Positions 3,909 through 32,446 of a stretch of DNA of 64,000 nt are shown piece after piece. Positions within the stretch are counted from its first letter, which is position 1, and every line of letters starts with the position of its first letter. The notes beneath the pieces are model-generated. The model saw only the letters and a list, made by a program, of their open reading frames with translations, was not told where the DNA came from and made no database searches. Both the position numbers and the translations under genes were made by a program. This stretch comes from Eubacterium sp. (GTDB lineage Bacteria > Bacillota > Clostridia > Peptostreptococcales > Anaerovoracaceae), in contig JAFWHX010000013.1 of assembly GCA_017533915.1 (NCBI GenBank), positions 124,001-188,000 of the forward strand. The letters are read 5' to 3'.

Positions 3909-4666
3909 TATTCTGTCGCCTTTCTGAATTCTGTCGTGAATCCCGGGTGATAGAGCTTGCTTCTTTCATATTCGTCTCCCAGGAATCCGCCTACCAGGAT
4001 AAGCGCCATCTTGTGGATGTCTTCCTTCTTCGCAGTCTCCGCGATCGTGCCTACAGTGCAGCGGCATACTTTCTGATCAGGCCATGTCGCCTTATAGACG
4101 ATCGCTGCAGGCGTATCCTCTGTATACACGCCGCCCGCAAGGAGATCTTTCTGCAGTTCTTCAAGAAGCGTCGACGACAGGAACAGGACCATAGTCGCTC
4201 CGTGCTTCGAAAAGCTCGTTACGCTCTCTCTTTCAGGTACCGGAGTCCTTCCTGCTTCACGTGTGATTATGACGCTCTGACTTACATTCGGCAGCGTATA
4301 TTCAGCACAGAGCGCAGAAGCTGCTCCTGAGAAAGCAGATACGCCCGGCGTATCGTCATACTCGATACCGAGCTCGTCAAGCTGATCCATCTGCTCACGG
4401 ATAGCGCCGTACAGACTCATGTCGCCGGTATGCAGGCGGACTATGTCTTTACCGTTCTTGTCGAATTCCTTCATCACGTCGATGACCTGTTCAAGCGTCA
4501 TCTCAGCGCTGTTATATACTTTGCAGTCTTCTTTTGCATAATCAAGAAGAGCCGGATTCACCAGGCTCCCGGCATAGATTATACAATCAGTCTTCTCCAG
4601 AAGCTCCTTGCCTCTTATCGTGATCAGATCCGGCGCCCCCGGGCCTGCTCCTACGAAATGTACCAT
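3908..4666 (-). CDS. cbiF: cobalt-precorrin-4 C11-methyltransferase
   Basis: CbiF/CobM tetrapyrrole methylase, 252 aa. It starts MVHFVGAGPGAPDLIT, the classical SAM/tetrapyrrole methylase signature, and carries YAGSLV, RLHTGDMSLYGAI and ITREAGRTPVPE, all conserved in CbiF. It adds the C11 methyl group. The gene is spaced 130 bases from cbiD; that interval contains only a weak inverted repeat near 4708-4730 and no gene I can support. Confidence 0.95.
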   Translation of the reverse strand: MVHFVGAGPGAPDLITIRGKELLEKTDCIIYAGSLVNPALLDYAKEDCKVYNSAEMTLEQVIDVMKEFDKNGKDIVRLHTGDMSLYGAIREQMDQLDELGIEYDDTPGVSAFSGAASALCAEYTLPNVSQSVIITREAGRTPVPERESVTSFSKHGATMVLFLSSTLLEELQKDLLAGGVYTEDTPAAIVYKATWPDQKVCRCTVGTIAETAKKEDIHKMALILVGGFLGDEYERSKLYHPGFTTEFRKATE

Positions 4667-4796
4667 AGTCGATTACCTCCGTTTCAGTTGTTGCGTAGTA
4701 TATCCAAGGCAGACCGTCAAAGCCTGCCTGCTTTCACATTTTAATATGGACGAGCCTTCACCAGATCCCTGTCTGACGCGGCATCCTGATCCTGAA

Positions 4797-5945
4797 TCAT
4801 CTGTCCCCATCCTGCTCATGCCATGAGCGAATGATCTCTCGTGCTTTATCTGTCTCGCCCAGATAACCGTAGACATTAGAGAATGTCACGGCTCCAATCT
4901 CAAACGCGCCGCCTGCGCGGTGTTCAAGCTTCTCCTGAACTTTACTCAGGATGCTGTTTATCACCTGCTCACGGAGCCCGAACTCATCAAGTATCTCTAT
5001 CGATGCATCTGTTGTCGCGGCATTCATTATGCGGCAGCATGTCTCCTGGTCTGCCCCGCATATCGCAGCATGCGCTGTGAAGATCTCGGCGCGGCCGTCA
5101 GCCCATCTTGAATGAGTGTTCATAACAGCACCGGCGACTTTTACCATCTTTCCGATATGCGCGACGAGAAGCAGCTTCGTATATCCGAGGTTTGCTGCCA
5201 TATCGAGAGTATCCCCCAGAAAATTGGAGAACTTTACCACAGGGATATCGATCCCGTTCAGATCAGATCCTTTAAGATATGTCTCTCCGTAGTTTCCGGG
5301 AGTGATGATCAGCTCTTTTGTGTACTCCGCCTTCTGACGCATCTCGACTTCGATAGTGTCGATCAGAGCCTGTTCGCTCATCGGCTCTACTATTCCATTC
5401 GTTCCGATCACTGAGATGCCGCCCTCCACTCCCAGCACCGGGTTGAAAGTCTTGCAGGCTATCTCTTTGCCCTGCGGTATGGAGATCACGACGTCTGCGC
5501 CGCCTTCATACTTCTCTTCATCCAGCACCAGCTGAACTGCATCTGTTATCATTCTGCGAGGCACACTGTTTATCGCTGCGTTTCCCACAGGCTGATCAAG
5601 TCCGGGCTTAGTCACCCTGCCGACGCCTTCGCCGCCGTCTATCCTGACTCCCTGTTCGTCAGAAAGCGTCACGGTCGAAAAAATAAGGATGCCGTTAGTG
5701 GCGTCGATATCGTCACCAGCATCCTTCTTTATTGCACACCAAAATCTTTCGGCATCGCATCCGCTTTCTGCGATGTCAGTCTCGACCAGAAGGCCTTTCC
5801 CCGTCATGACCGATACGGTGTCAGGCACTTTACCCGTCAGCGCATATCTCACTGCACCTGAAGACGCAAGAGCAGCACATGTACCTGTGGTATAGCCGCA
5901 TCTCAGCATCCTGGTCCCGCTTCTTACATAATGTTCAAATGCCAT
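4797..5945 (-). CDS. cbiD: cobalt-precorrin-5B C1-methyltransferase
   Basis: CbiD, the C1 methylase unique to anaerobic B12 synthesis, 382 aa. The N-terminal LRCGYTTGTCAA is the family signature; GEGVGRVTKPGL and PGNYGE follow. It is the first gene of the cobalamin run seen here and lies 30 bases downstream of purC on the same strand. I searched the upstream region for the conserved core of a cobalamin riboswitch and saw none, so regulation may lie further upstream or outside the purC junction. Confidence 0.95.
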   Translation of the reverse strand: MAFEHYVRSGTRMLRCGYTTGTCAALASSGAVRYALTGKVPDTVSVMTGKGLLVETDIAESGCDAERFWCAIKKDAGDDIDATNGILIFSTVTLSDEQGVRIDGGEGVGRVTKPGLDQPVGNAAINSVPRRMITDAVQLVLDEEKYEGGADVVISIPQGKEIACKTFNPVLGVEGGISVIGTNGIVEPMSEQALIDTIEVEMRQKAEYTKELIITPGNYGETYLKGSDLNGIDIPVVKFSNFLGDTLDMAANLGYTKLLLVAHIGKMVKVAGAVMNTHSRWADGRAEIFTAHAAICGADQETCCRIMNAATTDASIEILDEFGLREQVINSILSKVQEKLEHRAGGAFEIGAVTFSNVYGYLGETDKAREIIRSWHEQDGDR

Positions 5946-6946: not shown

Positions 6947-7978
6947 TCACCCGTTATACGCCAGCTGCTGCAGGTAATACTTGGACTTCTGGTCCATATC
7001 TTCGCGATACCATTTGAACCCTTCGTCCACTTTGTTCCGGTACTTGAACATATCGTAGATCATTTCATCACTGATATCATCGGCAGTGGTCTTGCTGTCC
7101 AGCCCCATAAAGTGGCACATCTCATACTGGTACACGTCATCGCCTTCCTTGGACCAGTATATATAATGCTTGTCCGGATATTTATGTATCAGCCTCATCA
7201 TAACGACCAGACCATCGTCACGGCTCGGGTCATAAGGCTTTGCAAGATATACTCCGTAGACCTCGAATCTTACGTCGTATTTATCTTCATCTGCGAAGAT
7301 CTTCTTGTGATGACCGCCCTTTGCTTTCTTTATCTTTTTCTTTGCAGCCTTCACCGCGGCTTTGATCAGATCGTCGCGTCCGTTCACCTCATTATATGTC
7401 AGCTTGGCTGCGAGGCCTGATACTGTGACCTTTTTATGCTCACCGATGCCGTTGATCTCTATATTGGCTTCTCTCTCGATCTCGTCAGGCTCTTCTTTAC
7501 TCCTGATATATACCGTTACTTTGTCGCCGTTCGACAGCCTTTCGTCCTTGTCGCTTTCATAATACAGTCCGTCCAGGAACCGCTCTACCGCCTCGAGACG
7601 CGTCTTTTCTGCTGCGTCCTTGGTCTTCTCATCGATCCCCATCTCAGATGCGATCATGGACAGACTTGCTTTATTCTTCACATTGTCCGAAACGAATCGT
7701 CCATATCCGTTCGTACCGTCAAAAGCCTCACTCGGTACGCTCCATTTCTTCGAAACGTCTACCTTGACAGTCTGGATCTCCTTCTTCTCCGTCTCCTCAG
7801 TCTGCGTAGTCGAATCCGCCTTGCCGTCGCCTTCTTCGCCGTACATGACCCACATCACGAATCCTCCGATCACGAGAGCCACGCATACAGCTATAAAGAA
7901 AAGTATCCAGGCAAAGATAAAGCATCCGCGCCCCTGTTTTTTTTCTTTCTCCTTTACATGCTTTCCTTCGCTTCTCAT
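6947..7978 (-). CDS. single-pass membrane protein of unknown function
   Basis: I do not recognise this 343-aa protein. A short Lys/Glu-rich cytoplasmic head is followed by one membrane segment at about residues 19-45 (CFIFAWILFFIAVCVALV), an acidic Thr/Glu linker, and a roughly 270-residue extracellular region with several Lys-rich stretches, for example around KAAKKKIKKAKGGHHKK. There are no obvious catalytic motifs. GGGGA precedes the ATG at 7978. It lies alone between purC and a small divergent gene. A role in the envelope is the only inference the sequence allows. Confidence 0.75.
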   Translation of the reverse strand: MRSEGKHVKEKEKKQGRGCFIFAWILFFIAVCVALVIGGFVMWVMYGEEGDGKADSTTQTEETEKKEIQTVKVDVSKKWSVPSEAFDGTNGYGRFVSDNVKNKASLSMIASEMGIDEKTKDAAEKTRLEAVERFLDGLYYESDKDERLSNGDKVTVYIRSKEEPDEIEREANIEINGIGEHKKVTVSGLAAKLTYNEVNGRDDLIKAAVKAAKKKIKKAKGGHHKKIFADEDKYDVRFEVYGVYLAKPYDPSRDDGLVVMMRLIHKYPDKHYIYWSKEGDDVYQYEMCHFMGLDSKTTADDISDEMIYDMFKYRNKVDEGFKWYREDMDQKSKYYLQQLAYNG

Positions 7979-8102
7979 TAAATTCCCCTTTTTATATCAA
8001 GCCGGCCGCACAATAAAACCTCCGGCGCATATATACCCATTTGTATTATACCACTAATAGCTTATTCTTTACATTCTATTTAGCCCTTTTTGGCCTATTC
8101 TG

Positions 8103-10966: not shown

Positions 10967-11650
10967 CTACTCCTCCCTTTCATCATATTTTGAGAAATGC
11001 TTCTCGACCTTATCAGCGATCGTCTGCGTAATGAACGTGAAGAACATGTACACTATTGCAGCTACCACGTAGACCGCGAGCACAAAGTCTCTGTTGACCA
11101 TGCTCTCGGATACCCTCATTATCTCCTGAAGCGTGATAACTGATGCCAGTGCCGTATCCTTGATCAGAAGGATAGCTTCATTAGCGACGCCCGGGAGCAC
11201 TACGCGCATCATCTGCGGGATAACGACGTCAAACATCTCCTGCGTCTTTGAAAGTCCGAGCGAATGGCTCGCCTCATACTGTCCGTGATCGATCGAGTTT
11301 ATACCGCCGCGGTAGATCTCCGCTATGTAAGCCGCATAATTCAGCACGAACGTGAGCGCAGCTGTCGGGAACGCCGGCAGCGTTATGTTGAGTGCGATCG
11401 GGAAGAAGAAATAGAAGAACCAGAGCTGAAGGATAAGTGGTGTTCCTCTGAAAACGAATACATACGCTTTGCAGAGCCATCTTATAGGCGCTATCTTGCT
11501 TATCTCTCCAAATGCGATCGGAAGTCCCAGCGGGACCGCAAGCACGATCGTGACCGCCCAGAGCTGGATCGTGACGACTGTCGCCCTGAGTATCGTCGGG
11601 GTCGCTATGGTCCAGAGATAGACCATTGTCTCCTGAAATGTCATATTCAT
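10967..11650 (-). CDS. polar amino-acid ABC transporter permease
   Basis: HisM/GlnP-type inner-membrane subunit, 227 aa with about five membrane segments and the EAA loop [21 protein letters not shown] that docks with the ATPase. AAGGA precedes the ATG at 11650. It lies downstream of the binding-protein gene but across a strong terminator, and 2 bases before the ATPase gene, so permease and ATPase form a tight pair. Confidence 0.95.
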
Positions 11651-11742
11651 ATAAATGTCCTTTCGTTATGCTCCTGAACACTTCCGGAGCGGAGTCGAGC
11701 ATGCTCCGTGAAGCACCTGGTGCTCACAAGAGCTTTTTAAGA

Positions 11743-11774
11743 GAAAAAAACGGCCGCCCTTGAGGGCGGCCGTT
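11743..11774 (-). terminator. intercistronic Rho-independent terminator within the amino-acid transporter operon
   Basis: On the minus strand a perfect 10-bp stem ACGGCCGCCC / GGGCGGCCGT with a 4-base loop is followed by a run of T. It lies between the binding-protein gene and the permease gene, so transcripts from the upstream promoter should mostly end here, with read-through supplying the membrane parts. Confidence 0.9.
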
Positions 11775-11788
11775 GTTCCGCCGTCTGT

Positions 11789-12625
11789 TTACAGGTCTTC
11801 GTAGATGACCATGTTCCTCTGGAACCAGTTGTTGCTGATCTCTTCGGCTTTCCCGCTGTCGATTACTGCCTTGAGAGCTTCATTCACTTTCTCTGTGAAC
11901 TCTGTGTCTTCTTTACGGAATCCGATGGCATAGTCATCTGATCCGAAGTTGAATTCACTCTCATACAGCTTTTCTTTATTCTGGTTGTTATATGTGGCGT
12001 ATACTTCGTCGATAACGACTACGTCTACTCTCCCCGCTTTCATGTCGAGGATCGCCTGATCGTATGTCTTGTACTCAGTAACGTTGTCCTTGAATTCATC
12101 GTAAAGCTCATTAGCTTTGATGTCATCTGCCGCAGCAGAGTCTGCTTGAGTCGCGATCTTGTAGTTCTTCAATTCTGTAGCGTCTTTGATGTTGATCTTC
12201 TCATCAAGAGACATCACGAGCTCTCTGTTCGCGAGATATCTCTTGGACATGGACATATTCTTGACACGGTCAGGTGTCACCGAAAGTCCGTTCCAGATGC
12301 AGTCGATCTTCTTCGACGCAAGCTCAGCTTCCTTTGCCGTCCAGTCGATCGCCTTGAACTCGACTTCCAGTCCCATCTCTTCAAATACAGCCTTCGCTAG
12401 GTCGATATCAAAACCTACGATCTCATTGTTTTCATCGCGGAATCCCATAGGCGCGAATGTATCATCAAGTCCTACTATTACTTTACCCCTGTCCTGGATG
12501 TATTCCCAGTCAGTCTTTTCTGATTCTCCGCCGCCGCTCTTTCCGCATCCTGTCAGCGCGAATACCGACAGAGCCAGTACCACGATCATGCCGATGACTA
12601 CGACCATTCTAGTTGTCTTTTTCAT
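11789..12625 (-). CDS. amino-acid-binding lipoprotein of the ABC transporter
   Basis: Extracellular solute-binding protein, family 3, 278 aa. A signal peptide ends in the lipobox LTGC, so the mature protein is lipid-anchored. The body carries GLDDTFAPMGFRD, GFDIDLAKA and WNGLSVTPDR, typical of arginine/glutamine/histidine-type binding proteins. Start 12625 is supported by GGAGGA 7 bases upstream; upstream in-frame ATGs overlap that site. The genes for permease and ATPase follow beyond a terminator, which fits the usual excess of binding protein. Confidence 0.95.
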   Translation of the reverse strand: MKKTTRMVVVIGMIVVLALSVFALTGCGKSGGGESEKTDWEYIQDRGKVIVGLDDTFAPMGFRDENNEIVGFDIDLAKAVFEEMGLEVEFKAIDWTAKEAELASKKIDCIWNGLSVTPDRVKNMSMSKRYLANRELVMSLDEKINIKDATELKNYKIATQADSAAADDIKANELYDEFKDNVTEYKTYDQAILDMKAGRVDVVVIDEVYATYNNQNKEKLYESEFNFGSDDYAIGFRKEDTEFTEKVNEALKAVIDSGKAEEISNNWFQRNMVIYEDL

Positions 12626-27517: not shown

Positions 27518-27533
27518 TATTCTGCCTCCTTAT

Positions 27534-27599
27534 GTCTAAAAGTATGTTCACTTCTGTCTAAAAGTATGCTCACTTGTGTCTAAAAGAATGTTCACTTCC
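27534..27599. repeat. three tandem 22-bp repeats at the ABM gene end
   Basis: Units at 27534-27555, 27556-27577 and 27578-27599 differ by one to three bases. On the minus strand each reads AAGTGAACATACTTTTAGAC or nearly so, containing AAGT-N6-ACTT. The unit nearest the ABM gene contains its last Lys codon and TGA stop, so the other two duplicate the gene's 3' end. They lie in the leader of the next gene. Confidence 0.9.
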
Positions 27600-28757: not shown

Positions 28758-28790
28758 AAAAAACTGCATCCCCGATCGGATGCAGCCATT
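28758..28790 (-). terminator. Rho-independent terminator downstream of the repeat region
   Basis: CTGCATCC / GGATGCAG with T7 on the minus strand. No protein gene ends here; it would end transcripts coming from the 28.8-29.5-kb repeat region. Confidence 0.8.
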
Positions 28791-28823: not shown

Positions 28824-28979
28824 CCGCAGCTTATGGGGGGCGTCTGCTGCATCGCTCGCCCAACTTCAGTGTATTGAGATGTCTGCCGTATCGCTCACCC
28901 AATGCAGTTTGGGGAGATGTCTGCTGTATTGCCTGCACAACCGCTGTTTATGGAGATGTCAGCTGCATTGCCTGCACAA
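28824..28979. repeat. four degenerate tandem repeats of about 39 bp
   Basis: Units 28824-28863, 28864-28902, 28903-28940 and 28941-28979 (40, 39, 38, 39 bp), each with a core like GAGATGTCTGC and an end like TCGCTCACCCAA or TGCCTGCACAA; a fifth weak unit follows. The varying unit lengths break every reading frame, so this is a DNA-level repeat. Confidence 0.8.
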
Positions 28980-29062
28980 CCGCAGTTAGTTGAGGCACTT
29001 TCTGCTATGCTTCCATCTGATTTTTGCTCACTTTTCGACAGAATCTCCTTCTCTGGGCTGTC

Positions 29063-29135
29063 CCTGTAGAAAAAATTTTCGACTTTGCTCGATTTACTAC
29101 ACTTTTCATCAAATCCTTGCTGTTTTTTCTACAGG
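29063..29135. repeat. single inverted-repeat element related to the array
   Basis: CCTGTAGAAAAAA (29063-29075) pairs with TTTTTTCTACAGG (29123-29135), 73 bp end to end. The arm ends CTGTAGA/TCTACAG are the same as those of the four-copy array beginning 24 bases further on, so this looks like a diverged fifth member. Confidence 0.7.
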
Positions 29136-29158: not shown

Positions 29159-29503
29159 GTCTACAGAATGAGAAAAATCATGTAAAGTGATATCATTTTC
29201 GCTGGTTTTCTGCTTTCTGTAGACGAGATCAGGGGTTTTCTGGCCGTTTCTGTCTACAGAATGAGTAAAATCATGCAAAATGATATCATTTTCGTTAGTT
29301 TTTTGCTTTCTGTAGACGGAATCTTTGGTTTTCTGGCTGTTTTTGTCTACAGATTGAGTAAAATCATGCAAAATGATATCATTTTCGTTAGTTTTTTGCT
29401 TTCTGTAGACGGAATCTTTGGTTTTACGGTTGTTTCTGTCTACAGAATGAGTAAAATCATGCAAAATGATATCATTTTTGATGTTTTTCTGTCTTCTGTA
29501 GAC
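29159..29503. repeat. four-copy array of 66-bp centred palindromes at 93-bp spacing
   Basis: Elements at 29159-29224, 29252-29317, 29345-29410 and 29438-29503 are each exactly 66 bp and start GTCTACAG and end CTGTAGAC. The exact centre of each is the palindrome AAAATGATATCATTTT (slightly changed in the first). By hand the second copy forms 24 Watson-Crick plus 2 GU pairs out of 33. They are separated by 27-bp linkers. Because 93 is divisible by three, open frames of 126 codons (minus) and 88 codons (plus) with 31-residue repeats run through, but neither has a ribosome site or a good start, so I treat it as non-coding. Confidence 0.9.
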
Positions 29504-29645
29504 GAGCAACTAATAACAGACGGTTAACTGCACATCATAATAAACCTGAAACCTCATATCAAATATAGTTTACAGATATATATTGATCAGAATTACAGCT
29601 ATCTCAACAAATCACAATAATGCCGATTACAAACATCCCATCACA

Positions 29646-29717: not shown

Positions 29718-29771
29718 ATTTGTTCGAATCCACCGCATCACTCATATAATACAAGAGTACTTTCCTTTTTC

Positions 29772-29841
29772 TTTATTCTTGCTCTCCGCCGTAGAGTTCT
29801 GCCGTTTTCCCCTTATTTCTACTCTCCGCCGTAGAATTCTG
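29772..29841. repeat. duplicated 3' end of the DUF3574-like gene
   Basis: 29812-29841 contains the last codons (EFYGGE) and TAG stop of the gene; 29772-29801 repeats these 30 bp with 26 matches at a 40-bp shift. In the downstream copy the stop reads CAA. Confidence 0.8.
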
Positions 29842-30256: not shown

Positions 30257-30352
30257 TTTGTGTTCCCCATTTTGTTTACTTTCATACAGTTTTGACTTTT
30301 TTCAGTTTTAACTTATTCGTTTTCTGTATCATATTGCCGGATATTATTATTT

Positions 30353-30462
30353 ATTAATGATTCTATTACCTGCGATTCACAACTCGAATACTGCCACTAT
30401 CTCATTTATTAGAGATTCTATTAAATGTGATTCACAGCTCATATACCGCCACTATCTCATTT
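30353..30462. repeat. two 55-bp tandem repeats duplicating the end of a GNAT gene
   Basis: 30408-30462 includes the last codons and TGA of the GNAT gene; 30353-30407 is the downstream copy, about 46 of 55 bases the same. The copy still encodes NEIVAVFEL-stop but in another frame. Confidence 0.85.
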
Positions 30463-31553: not shown

Positions 31554-31604
31554 TTTGTACCCTCCTTTATCCCTTTTGGTTTCACTTCTATTTTCTTACT
31601 CTCT

Positions 31605-31699
31605 TTTTCACAGCCGTTCTGATTCGATGGACAACTTTTCCCATCTTACTTTCTTTTTTCACAGCCTGTTTTGATTCGATGGACAACTTGTTCCATCTA
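31605..31699. repeat. 51/52-bp direct duplication in the leader of the Gln-rich protein gene
   Basis: TTTTCACAGCC followed by GATTCGATGGACAACTT and CCATCT occurs twice, at 31605-31655 and 31656-31699. It lies between the promoter and the start codon. Confidence 0.8.
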
Positions 31700-31800: not shown

Positions 31801-31826
31801 ATGCATATTATAATTGATTTATCTAC

Positions 31827-31916
31827 AAACTGGATTGTATCTATAATTCCGACAGCAAACTGGATTGTGTCTACAATTCCACCAGTAAACCGGAATATGC
31901 CTACAACTCCAACAGC
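31827..31916. repeat. three 30-bp repeats carrying the GNAT stop codon in frame
   Basis: Units 31827-31856, 31857-31886 and 31887-31916. The last includes the final codons and TAG of the GNAT gene. Because the unit is ten codons long, the frame reads L-x-E-L-stop three times in succession. Confidence 0.9.
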
Positions 31917-32446
31917 ATATATACTAATTCCTGATATCCGCTTATGCGCGAATTGAATCCTCTGGGATTTCGGCCGAATTCTACAAAGCCCAGACTTTTA
32001 TATAGAGAAATCGCCGTGGTATTCTCTGCTACCACGTTCAGCTCCAGTTGGGCATAACCGGCTTCTTTTGCACATTGAATACAGGCTTTTGTAAGGGCTT
32101 TCCCCAAGCCAAGCCCCCAGTACTCTTTTAAAATACTGATCCCAAATTCAGCTCTGTGCTTAACTTTATATTTCCTCCCTACAGCCTCGATACCCGCAGT
32201 TCCAGCTACTCTCCCATCTATTACAGCGATTATCTCGATCTCATCGGAACTTCTGGTTTTTTCCTCCAGAAAGTGAGCCTCCTGCTCAGGATCAAAGCTG
32301 TTTTCATCCTGATATGTCAGCAGATAGTCGGTCTCAGCGTGAGTAGCATTAAAAACATCGTAAACAATACGTCCATCGGCCGCATCGCCGTTCCTCAATA
32401 AAGCTTCTTTACCGTTTTTCAGTAATATCTTCTGTTCGTATCTCAT
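31901..32446 (-). CDS. GNAT-family N-acetyltransferase of the SirTM operon
   Basis: 181 aa. Acetyl-CoA binding loop YWGLGLGKALTKACIQCAKEA, preceded by KVKHRAEFGISI and followed by LELNVVAENTTAISLYKSLGF, a RimI/YhhY-like arrangement. Its ATG overlaps the sirtuin stop (ATGA), so it is translationally coupled to the SirTM gene. This pairing is notable because SirTM operons normally carry lipoylation genes. It could modify the same carrier or protein that is ADP-ribosylated, or simply be a passenger. Confidence 0.9.
   Translation of the reverse strand: MRYEQKILLKNGKEALLRNGDAADGRIVYDVFNATHAETDYLLTYQDENSFDPEQEAHFLEEKTRSSDEIEIIAVIDGRVAGTAGIEAVGRKYKVKHRAEFGISILKEYWGLGLGKALTKACIQCAKEAGYAQLELNVVAENTTAISLYKSLGFVEFGRNPRGFNSRISGYQELVYMLLEL

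Follow-up and report, generated by a model that had tools for sequence, protein, structure and literature searches.

The window, a 64,000-nucleotide stretch of a Eubacterium sp. contig (JAFWHX010000013.1, positions 124,001 to 188,000 of the forward strand), holds a tandem array of long imperfect palindromes next to a TetR-like gene. The features of the locus are the following.

28762-28787, minus strand: terminator-like hairpin, between the array and the TetR-like gene and outside the repeat family
28827-28981, plus strand: R, a 39-bp tandem repeat ahead of the A/B array; its profile matches 4 more loci, 2 of them with one weak copy
29064-29134, plus strand: type A unit of 71 bp found by profile, with CTGTAGAAA...TTTCTACAG ends and the core TTACACTTT, preceding the B units
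29159-29224, plus strand: type B unit copy 1, a 66-bp imperfect palindrome, 24 of 33 centred pairs
29252-29317, plus strand: type B unit copy 2, 24 of 33 centred pairs
29345-29410, plus strand: type B unit copy 3, 23 of 33 centred pairs, identical to copy 2 at 65 of 66 positions
29438-29503, plus strand: type B unit copy 4, 25 of 33 centred pairs
29225-29251, 29318-29344 and 29411-29437, no strand: 27-bp linkers, counted in the B-B linker statistics
29520-29571, plus strand: tail module T, a weak match (14 bits in the window; 80 and 77 bits in loci L023 and L024)

The first-pass annotation of this DNA had described four 66-bp palindromes at 93-bp spacing, and this was borne out by the positions of the units as well as by TRF (93 x 3.8): the start-to-start distance of the four B copies is 93 bp at every step. 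The centred Watson-Crick pairs amount to 24, 24, 23 and 25 of 33, to which 3, 2, 2 and 2 G-T pairs are added, so that the recount of copy 2 gave the same 24 pairs and two GU that had been counted by hand. The near-identity of copies 2 and 3 was likewise reproduced. When 63,934 66-mers of the window were scanned, just four had at least 23 of 33 centred pairs, and these start at 29159, 29252, 29345 and 29438. A single palindromic centre had been proposed for all copies; AAAATGATATCATTTT is indeed present in copies 2-4, but copy 1 reads AAAGTGATATCATTTT. All three linkers of the window measure 27 bp, as had been noted, and the terminator reported by the array corresponds to the hairpin at 28762-28787. 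A perfect promoter-like site, TTGACA-17-TATAAT, lies at 28716-28688 on the minus strand, ahead of the TetR-like gene (28645-28022).

The inverted repeat at 29063-29135 had been regarded as a fifth, diverged copy. It is actually a second unit type, A, which occurs elsewhere in tandem at 93 bp and which in the window carries a 13-bp perfect inverted repeat (29063-29075 and 29123-29135). The A-A steps are 93 bp in 19 of 25 cases, the rest being 92 (three times), 94, 91 and 69 bp; the B-B steps are 93 bp in 55 of 65 and 92 bp in the other 10, with linkers (n = 65) of 27 bp in 56, 26 bp in 8 and 28 bp in 1. Types A and B thus share nearly one 93-bp register. In addition, A stands before B in 14 of 14 adjacent A/B linkers and no B is directly followed by A; L025 has one weak A match (16 bits) 110 bp past its B units.

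A type B unit consists of near-invariant 6-bp ends (GTCTAC/GTAGAC) and an imperfect central dyad. These ends are found in 85 of 89 B units and the remaining four deviate at the outermost base only; in the alignment of B units, these four and one duplicate were omitted and the fourth L031 unit was added by eye. By contrast with the ends, the central column pair 29/38 varies freely (A-T 25, G-T 24, G-C 10, other 24; 83 units). Conserved sequence at the ends combined with a free centre is the pattern expected of a site at which a protein binds duplex DNA.

Other modules accompany the A/B units at some loci. Tandem 39-bp R repeats lie ahead of A/B arrays in the window (28827-28981), L023 and L028, and C repeats of about 34 bp follow the arrays in L023, L024, L028 and L042. 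A single mobile composite R-A-B-T-C was rejected: by profile, R was present in 5 of 24 array regions (2 of which have a single weak copy), whereas T was detected in 7 and C in 4, several of these matches being weak. Because R, C and T are patchy and several matches are weak, only A/B was taken as the core. Further tandem repeats with periods of 22-55 occur in the window at 27529-27598, 29766-29841, 30349-30462, 31594-31698 and 31826-31917, and by eye these are not inverted-repeat arrays of this kind.

In the genome from which the window comes (a draft of 21 contigs and 2.19 Mb), 75 matching pieces were found, spread over roughly two dozen places. Profiles run on 23 sequences, namely 22 stretches plus a portion of the window, detected 89 type B and 42 type A units. 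The A/B arrays occupy about 25 places, namely 22 B-bearing arrays, L031 with diverged B-like units, L041 with A-like units only, and an A match at C7:96228. Two of the 22, L033 and L034, run to contig ends and may be halves of one array; the contigs concerned, C9 and C14, end within A/B arrays, and the repeats seem to break the assembly. The idea of an only local minisatellite is refuted by this dispersal. The 66-bp unit is dispersed in its own genome, which is also the only one of 17 genomes of the genus to carry type B: the type B model had no match in the 16 others. An exact 32-base pattern had no match in other species within a collection of genome contigs. Short matches in two same-order genomes, G056 (32 bp) and G040 (27 bp), were taken as chance, the former being a lone short palindrome and the latter having no repeat.

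Identity was 0.890 between units of the same array and 0.817 between units of different arrays (81 full-length units); the difference of 0.073 compares with a maximum of 0.012 in label permutations. This indicates that arrays evolve locally after dispersal, and it fits the earlier proposal that element and linker were duplicated together. At L023, the spacer between two divergent genes, which we take to be yicC-like and rqcH-like, measures 1,546 bp from start to start and is filled by a composite of repeats, whereas the same spacer is 119-364 bp in 12 of the 14 other genomes of the genus that match the first gene; in the other 2 of these 14, the rqcH-like gene was not found in the stretch covered. 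The short spacers in 12 relatives are most simply read as a gain of the L023 composite in the lineage of the present genome. Of the three possibilities offered in the first-pass annotation, a family of small mobile palindromes comes closest: the repeats are dispersed and one site is unoccupied in 12 relatives, mobility being a putative property.

The neighbours of the arrays are, as read by eye, ordinary cellular genes. Their orientation relative to the array showed no bias (upstream 13 opposite and 10 same, downstream 14 opposite and 9 same), on which ground cis-regulation of neighbours was rejected. At L035, two large ORFs, of 818 and 976 aa, lie in a segment enclosed by two arrays in opposite orientation (4094-4812 and 11210-11834). 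The genome also has a second palindromic family with a 64-bp unit, GTTAGTATA...TATACTAAC, at C6:68855-69129 (L115:4856-5130) and 8 further places; copies of it lie beside A/B arrays at C1:93322-93493 and C4:42716-42927.

Two other possibilities had been raised for the window array, a multi-hairpin RNA and a protein of 31-residue repeats. Folding of one and of four units, as suggested earlier, gave z values of -3.8 to -5.4 for single units and -11.1 for the whole array; however, any inverted repeats would fold in this way. Among 83 distinct units, 75.1% of cells were paired against 75.0% in shuffled columns, and pairs with both sides changed numbered 14 against 13.3 in shuffles. The covariation score alone exceeded most shuffles (6 of 500 were as high), but the other four of five measures showed no excess. 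No Rfam family was found in the window. The RNA interpretation is not supported, since pairing equals that of shuffles and the unit lengths of the wider family described below follow the DNA helical turn. The repeat-protein interpretation was rejected because the B-B step is 92 bp in 10 cases out of 65 and because none of the six frames stays open in 9 of 21 arrays. Some open frame runs through 12 of the 21 arrays (those with at least 3 units), the frames differing. Frame +0 has a stop in only 7 of 54 units, and codon position 1 varies most (0.62 against 0.49 and 0.48 bits); we ascribe both the open frame +0 and the codon-phase pattern to composition and palindromy.

Comparison of the genes next to the arrays uncovered two paralogues, of 284 aa at L031 and 296 aa at L041, which are 55% identical. 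The L031 gene starts 56 bp downstream of a four-unit B-like array and the L041 gene 72 bp downstream of a four-unit A-like array (TRF ends). Such a gene adjoins some of the dispersed arrays, but the majority have none beside them. In the draft assembly, the window array is on contig C1 and the matching genes are on C9 and C18. The B-linked gene is followed by one encoding a DUF5688 protein (L031:5385-6845; PF18941, E 2.7e-57). No Pfam family scored above the cut-off for the L031 and L041 proteins, and among 37 family members the sole Pfam match was a weak one to SH3_5 in one member (E 0.002). The C-terminal part of the PADLOC PDC-S68 models was matched by 37 of 37 and the HEAT_CxxC_PDDEXK model by 26 of 37. 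The proteins are mostly 250-330 aa long with a PD-(D/E)XK-like C-terminus. In the alignment of the 37 members D217, E231 and Y241 are invariant, and E182 (at least 90%) and H232 are near-invariant; the Lys of the canonical (D/E)XK is not conserved: the motif reads EHxG, with L, A, F or C at the Lys position. Solved structures searched by profile gave no nuclease match. The conserved residues resemble those of PD-(D/E)XK enzymes apart from the missing Lys, and the family is a predicted, PD-(D/E)XK-like nuclease family.

Members of the family are present, often in several copies, in 33 of 119 genomes near that of the window and in 52 of 391 in the sample of the class, the present genome being counted. 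None of the 7 matches in the present genome at E 1e-3 was a gene remnant beside another of its arrays. A collection of viral contigs scanned with the patterns of one subfamily yielded no relative; relatives do occur in three short unannotated human-gut phage records, the best covering 75% of the query. Six plasmid places also have relatives, five of which are annotated as AAA family ATPase and match at the C-terminus only.

The association of these genes with repeats extends beyond the A/B arrays. Family genes with arrays mostly have their own motif, as shown by these examples: L127 has an 84-bp unit with GGTAGAC, L151 an 87-bp unit with GACTTGGTGCA on both sides, L125 a 53-bp unit with TTCCATGC, and L115, in the genome of the window, the 64-bp unit with GTTAGTATA. 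A strict test asked for two or more copies of an exact 8-mer in each of the two orientations, no farther than 600 bp from the gene. In the first set, 25 of 52 family loci were positive, in comparison with 1 of 80 random-region ORFs of the same genomes (P = 1.6e-11) and 0 of 26 ORFs that neighbour the family gene at these loci (P = 2.8e-6). In the second set, from more distant genomes, the respective numbers were 33 of 60 and 5 of 91 (P = 5.8e-12), with 3 of the 5 positive controls coming from region L292, which itself holds dispersed arrays. The test was negative at 27 of 52 and 27 of 60 family loci. The first set had been reduced from 64 loci to 52 by dropping 1 without a gene match, 9 duplicates and 2 with a flank below 300 bp, and the second from 61 by dropping 1. 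The control ORFs were taken irrespective of base composition, and with six family protein pairs more than 85% identical the counts are not fully independent. When only intergenic flanks of at least 250 bp were compared, the difference persisted (18 of 47 against 1 of 37, P = 5e-5; 31 of 58 against 3 of 37, P = 3e-6). Moreover, periodic self-similarity reached at least 0.8 in 43 of the 227 flanks of family genes, as opposed to 9 of the 320 control stretches. The association between the gene and a repeated inverted motif, seen in two sets, is strong.

Of 54 array flanks, 41 are on the upstream side of the family gene; some genes, e.g., L151, L228 and L230, have arrays on both sides. At L113 (C6:151173), another family gene of the same genome, TTGTACAAGGTTTTG...TGTGTACA elements are repeated in both flanks, as judged by eye. 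Upstream of the family genes at L192 and L193, inspection by eye revealed single elements close to the start codon. Their outer ends are GGGTCTTAT...AAGACCC-like and enclose a CATGGG...CCCATG dyad; the element resembles one array unit in operator position.

An exact inverted 8-mer was common to only 3 of 2,145 pairs of array-bearing loci. By protein identity, sharing occurred in 1 of 3 pairs at 70% or more, 0 of 10 at 50-70%, 2 of 176 at 35-50% and 0 of 1956 below that; the close pairs (3 at 70% or more) are too few for a test of co-divergence between protein and motif. All four gene-side arrays that were searched genome-wide have copies elsewhere: the 64-bp array of L115 at 9 places, the 87-bp array of genome G071 at about 22 places (38 matches), that of 54 bp in G488 at 4 places (8 matches), and the 84-bp array of G007 with one further array and a 39-bp fragment only. 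Dispersed 53-bp palindromic arrays (TGTAGAGT) were also observed, first in a control region, in G354, a genome of one contig of 1.67 Mb (L292:3340-3600 and 7788-8001; 21 matches at about 10 places), none of them within 20 kb of the listed family-gene places, for which 6 of 9 candidates were scored.

The unit lengths of the gene-side arrays are not evenly distributed. Loci with repeated inverted motifs whose period was supported by at least 2 steps (n = 45) had lengths of 42-43, 50-54, 61-65, 72-75, 82-87, 93-94, 105-106 and 125 bp. On a 10.5-bp cycle the mean resultant length of these values was 0.767 (P = 3e-12, mean phase 0.0 bp); P was 1e-4 in the first set (n = 18), 3.5e-9 in the second (n = 27) and 7e-12 when one paralogue and one homologue were removed (n = 43). 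The regularity was first seen in these data, and the textbook value was applied afterwards; the first of these P values is accordingly not fully a priori, and more weight goes to the split sets. Jittering the lengths by up to 5 bp in 200,000 sets never reproduced the observed fit, and the best cycle between 6 and 20 bp was 10.45 bp. Control tandem repeats with periods of 35-130 (n = 29), found by TRF in the window, in control regions and in gene-distant parts of family loci, gave a resultant of 0.108 (P = 0.71), a comparison that is unmatched in that 18 of the 29 were under 48 bp; without L292 and the window array (n = 24) the resultant was 0.192 (P = 0.41). The 93 bp of the window array correspond to 8.9 turns. 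Half-unit phasing was excluded by the periods near 53 and 74. The quantisation in helical turns suggests that the arrays act as protein-bound duplex DNA rather than as RNA or coding sequence.

The first-pass annotation had stated that the layout is not that of a known CRISPR, REP or attC, and the comparisons made here agree with this. CRISPR arrays have constant repeats and unique spacers, whereas the linkers here are repeated and similar both within and between arrays; unlike attC sites of integrons, the arrays have no gene cassettes and their linkers are 22-28 bp. MITE/REPIN elements have terminal inverted repeats with target-site duplication and a parental transposase; inverted ends are what was observed in the present units. 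In the MIRU/VNTR of mycobacteria, units some tens of bp long are repeated in tandem in many intergenic regions; they are not known to be palindromic, and to our knowledge no nuclease is linked to them. The arrays described here resemble them in the tandem units and the many intergenic loci but differ by the palindromes and the nuclease-like gene. ToxIN, a type III toxin-antitoxin system, has tandem repeats just upstream of a nuclease gene. Here too, tandem repeats lie upstream of a nuclease-like gene, but the repeats are dispersed, helix-phased and palindromic, and the protein has no profile match to such a toxin. The candidate defence proteins PDC-S68 and HEAT_CxxC_PD-DEXK of PADLOC have a similar C-terminal domain; the PDC-S68 models have 1202-1273 residues and are matched at the C-terminus only, whereas the present proteins stand alone, mostly with 250-330 aa and with adjacent arrays. 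BOX elements are modular (boxA-B-C) with variable inner units. BOX elements of Streptococcus pneumoniae are described as intergenic, dispersed and species-restricted, with open frames on both strands of some (PMC3049150), and by description the present arrays are like them in these respects. That description names no linked enzyme, and two unit types sharing nearly one 93-bp register set the present arrays apart.

The closest comparison in logic is with REP/RAYT, in which an enzyme gene is flanked by palindromic repeats, cognate repeats are dispersed, divergence is fast and families are species-specific (PMC2817692, PMC3733652). Cognate repeats flanking an enzyme gene and dispersed copies are both found here; the likeness is one of logic, not of family membership. 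No transposase match was obtained in Pfam among the 37 members, the enzyme being PD-(D/E)XK-like. REPs measure 20-40 bp and have an unpaired GTAG or CGTC tag, but the units here are 66 and 71 bp long and have GTAG inside paired arms only; moreover, the present arrays are tandem, with periods of 42-125 bp quantised in helical turns.

Taken together, we consider it probable that the window array is a dispersed member of a system made up of a nuclease-like protein and tandem inverted repeats, with a logic like that of RAYT/REP and with binding, cutting and mobility as its putative activities. The family protein would recognise its own array in double-stranded form by binding to the inverted half-sites, and with successive units on one face of the helix several protein molecules could assemble cooperatively. 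A gene-side array, usually upstream, may also allow the gene to be regulated by its own protein. Cutting or nicking at the array would lead to expansion, contraction and copying to new intergenic sites, the outcome being a selfish repeat family comparable in logic to RAYT/REP. The presence of arrays on both sides of some genes suggests array-gene-array units, which could lose the gene by recombination between the arrays and leave lone arrays like that of the window.

A bolder formulation, which we put forward tentatively and would sooner doubt than assert, is that of a hitherto undescribed class of selfish DNA in Clostridia: a PD-(D/E)XK-like enzyme would assemble on palindromic arrays of its own, phased to the helix, and would cut them and spread them. 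Fast change of the motif with each paralogue would then produce coexisting families (A/B, the 64-bp family and others in the present genome), the dispersed arrays would have arisen as copies or else as what is left of array-gene-array units after loss of the gene, and the integer-turn length might be the footprint of an enzyme that bridges two sites on one helix face during amplification.

Among the other explanations, an anti-phage nuclease, with the arrays as operator or decoy sites that titrate or shield the enzyme until infection, appears unlikely, though less so than the rest. It agrees with the C-terminal match to PADLOC defence candidates, with the multiple and variable copies of the genes between genomes, with the fast turnover of motifs (no 8-mer is common to any of the 10 array-bearing pairs whose proteins are 50-70% identical) and with the relatives in phage records. 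Dispersed arrays, however, would be superfluous for defence; the neighbours read by eye are ordinary genes with no defence island, no partner gene was identified, and the scan of viral contigs with one subfamily's patterns found no relative. We regard it as improbable that the arrays are chromosome sites and the protein a domesticated array-binding factor with a role in host architecture or regulation. Helical phasing, the conserved GTCTAC/GTAGAC ends, intergenic siting and a unit number that varies while 93 bp is mostly kept are in keeping with such a role, but a host function is difficult to reconcile with type B in 1 of 17 genomes of the genus, with the inconsistent orientation of arrays to their neighbours and with a conserved gene pair whose spacer is short and array-free in 12 relatives.

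An RNA made from the array and acting with the protein, as in type III toxin-antitoxin systems or as a guide RNA, is very improbable. The upstream position of most arrays and the better folding of units and whole array than of shuffles would be expected of it; yet covariation does not exceed that of shuffles in four of five measures, unit length is set by DNA helical turns, the gene may have its array on one side, on the other or on both, the protein is similar to nucleases that act on DNA, and Rfam has no family in the window. Coincidence, i.e., genomes rich in intergenic tandem repeats with the genes merely situated in repeat-rich places, could draw on the several unrelated tandem repeats of the window, but it is hardly credible given the control comparisons (also with intergenic flanks of at least 250 bp only), the motifs that differ from gene to gene and the helical quantisation that control repeats lack. 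The nuclease-like protein with its tandem inverted repeats is the reading that we prefer. In the first-pass annotation as a whole, the palindrome family comes closest, the RNA option is not supported and the protein option is rejected; the link to a nuclease-like gene was not visible from the window.

We found no description of such a nuclease-repeat system in open-access PMC text. What we describe looks like a new enzyme-plus-repeat system, which lacks two defining features of REP/RAYT. With a candidate enzyme attached to these unexplained intergenic repeats, the question of where they come from becomes testable, much as RAYT made it for REPs. Genome sequence by itself seldom reveals a constraint of DNA geometry, as the quantised unit length does here. 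Finally, enzyme-motif pairs that change so fast would be a natural source of sequence-specific DNA-binding proteins.
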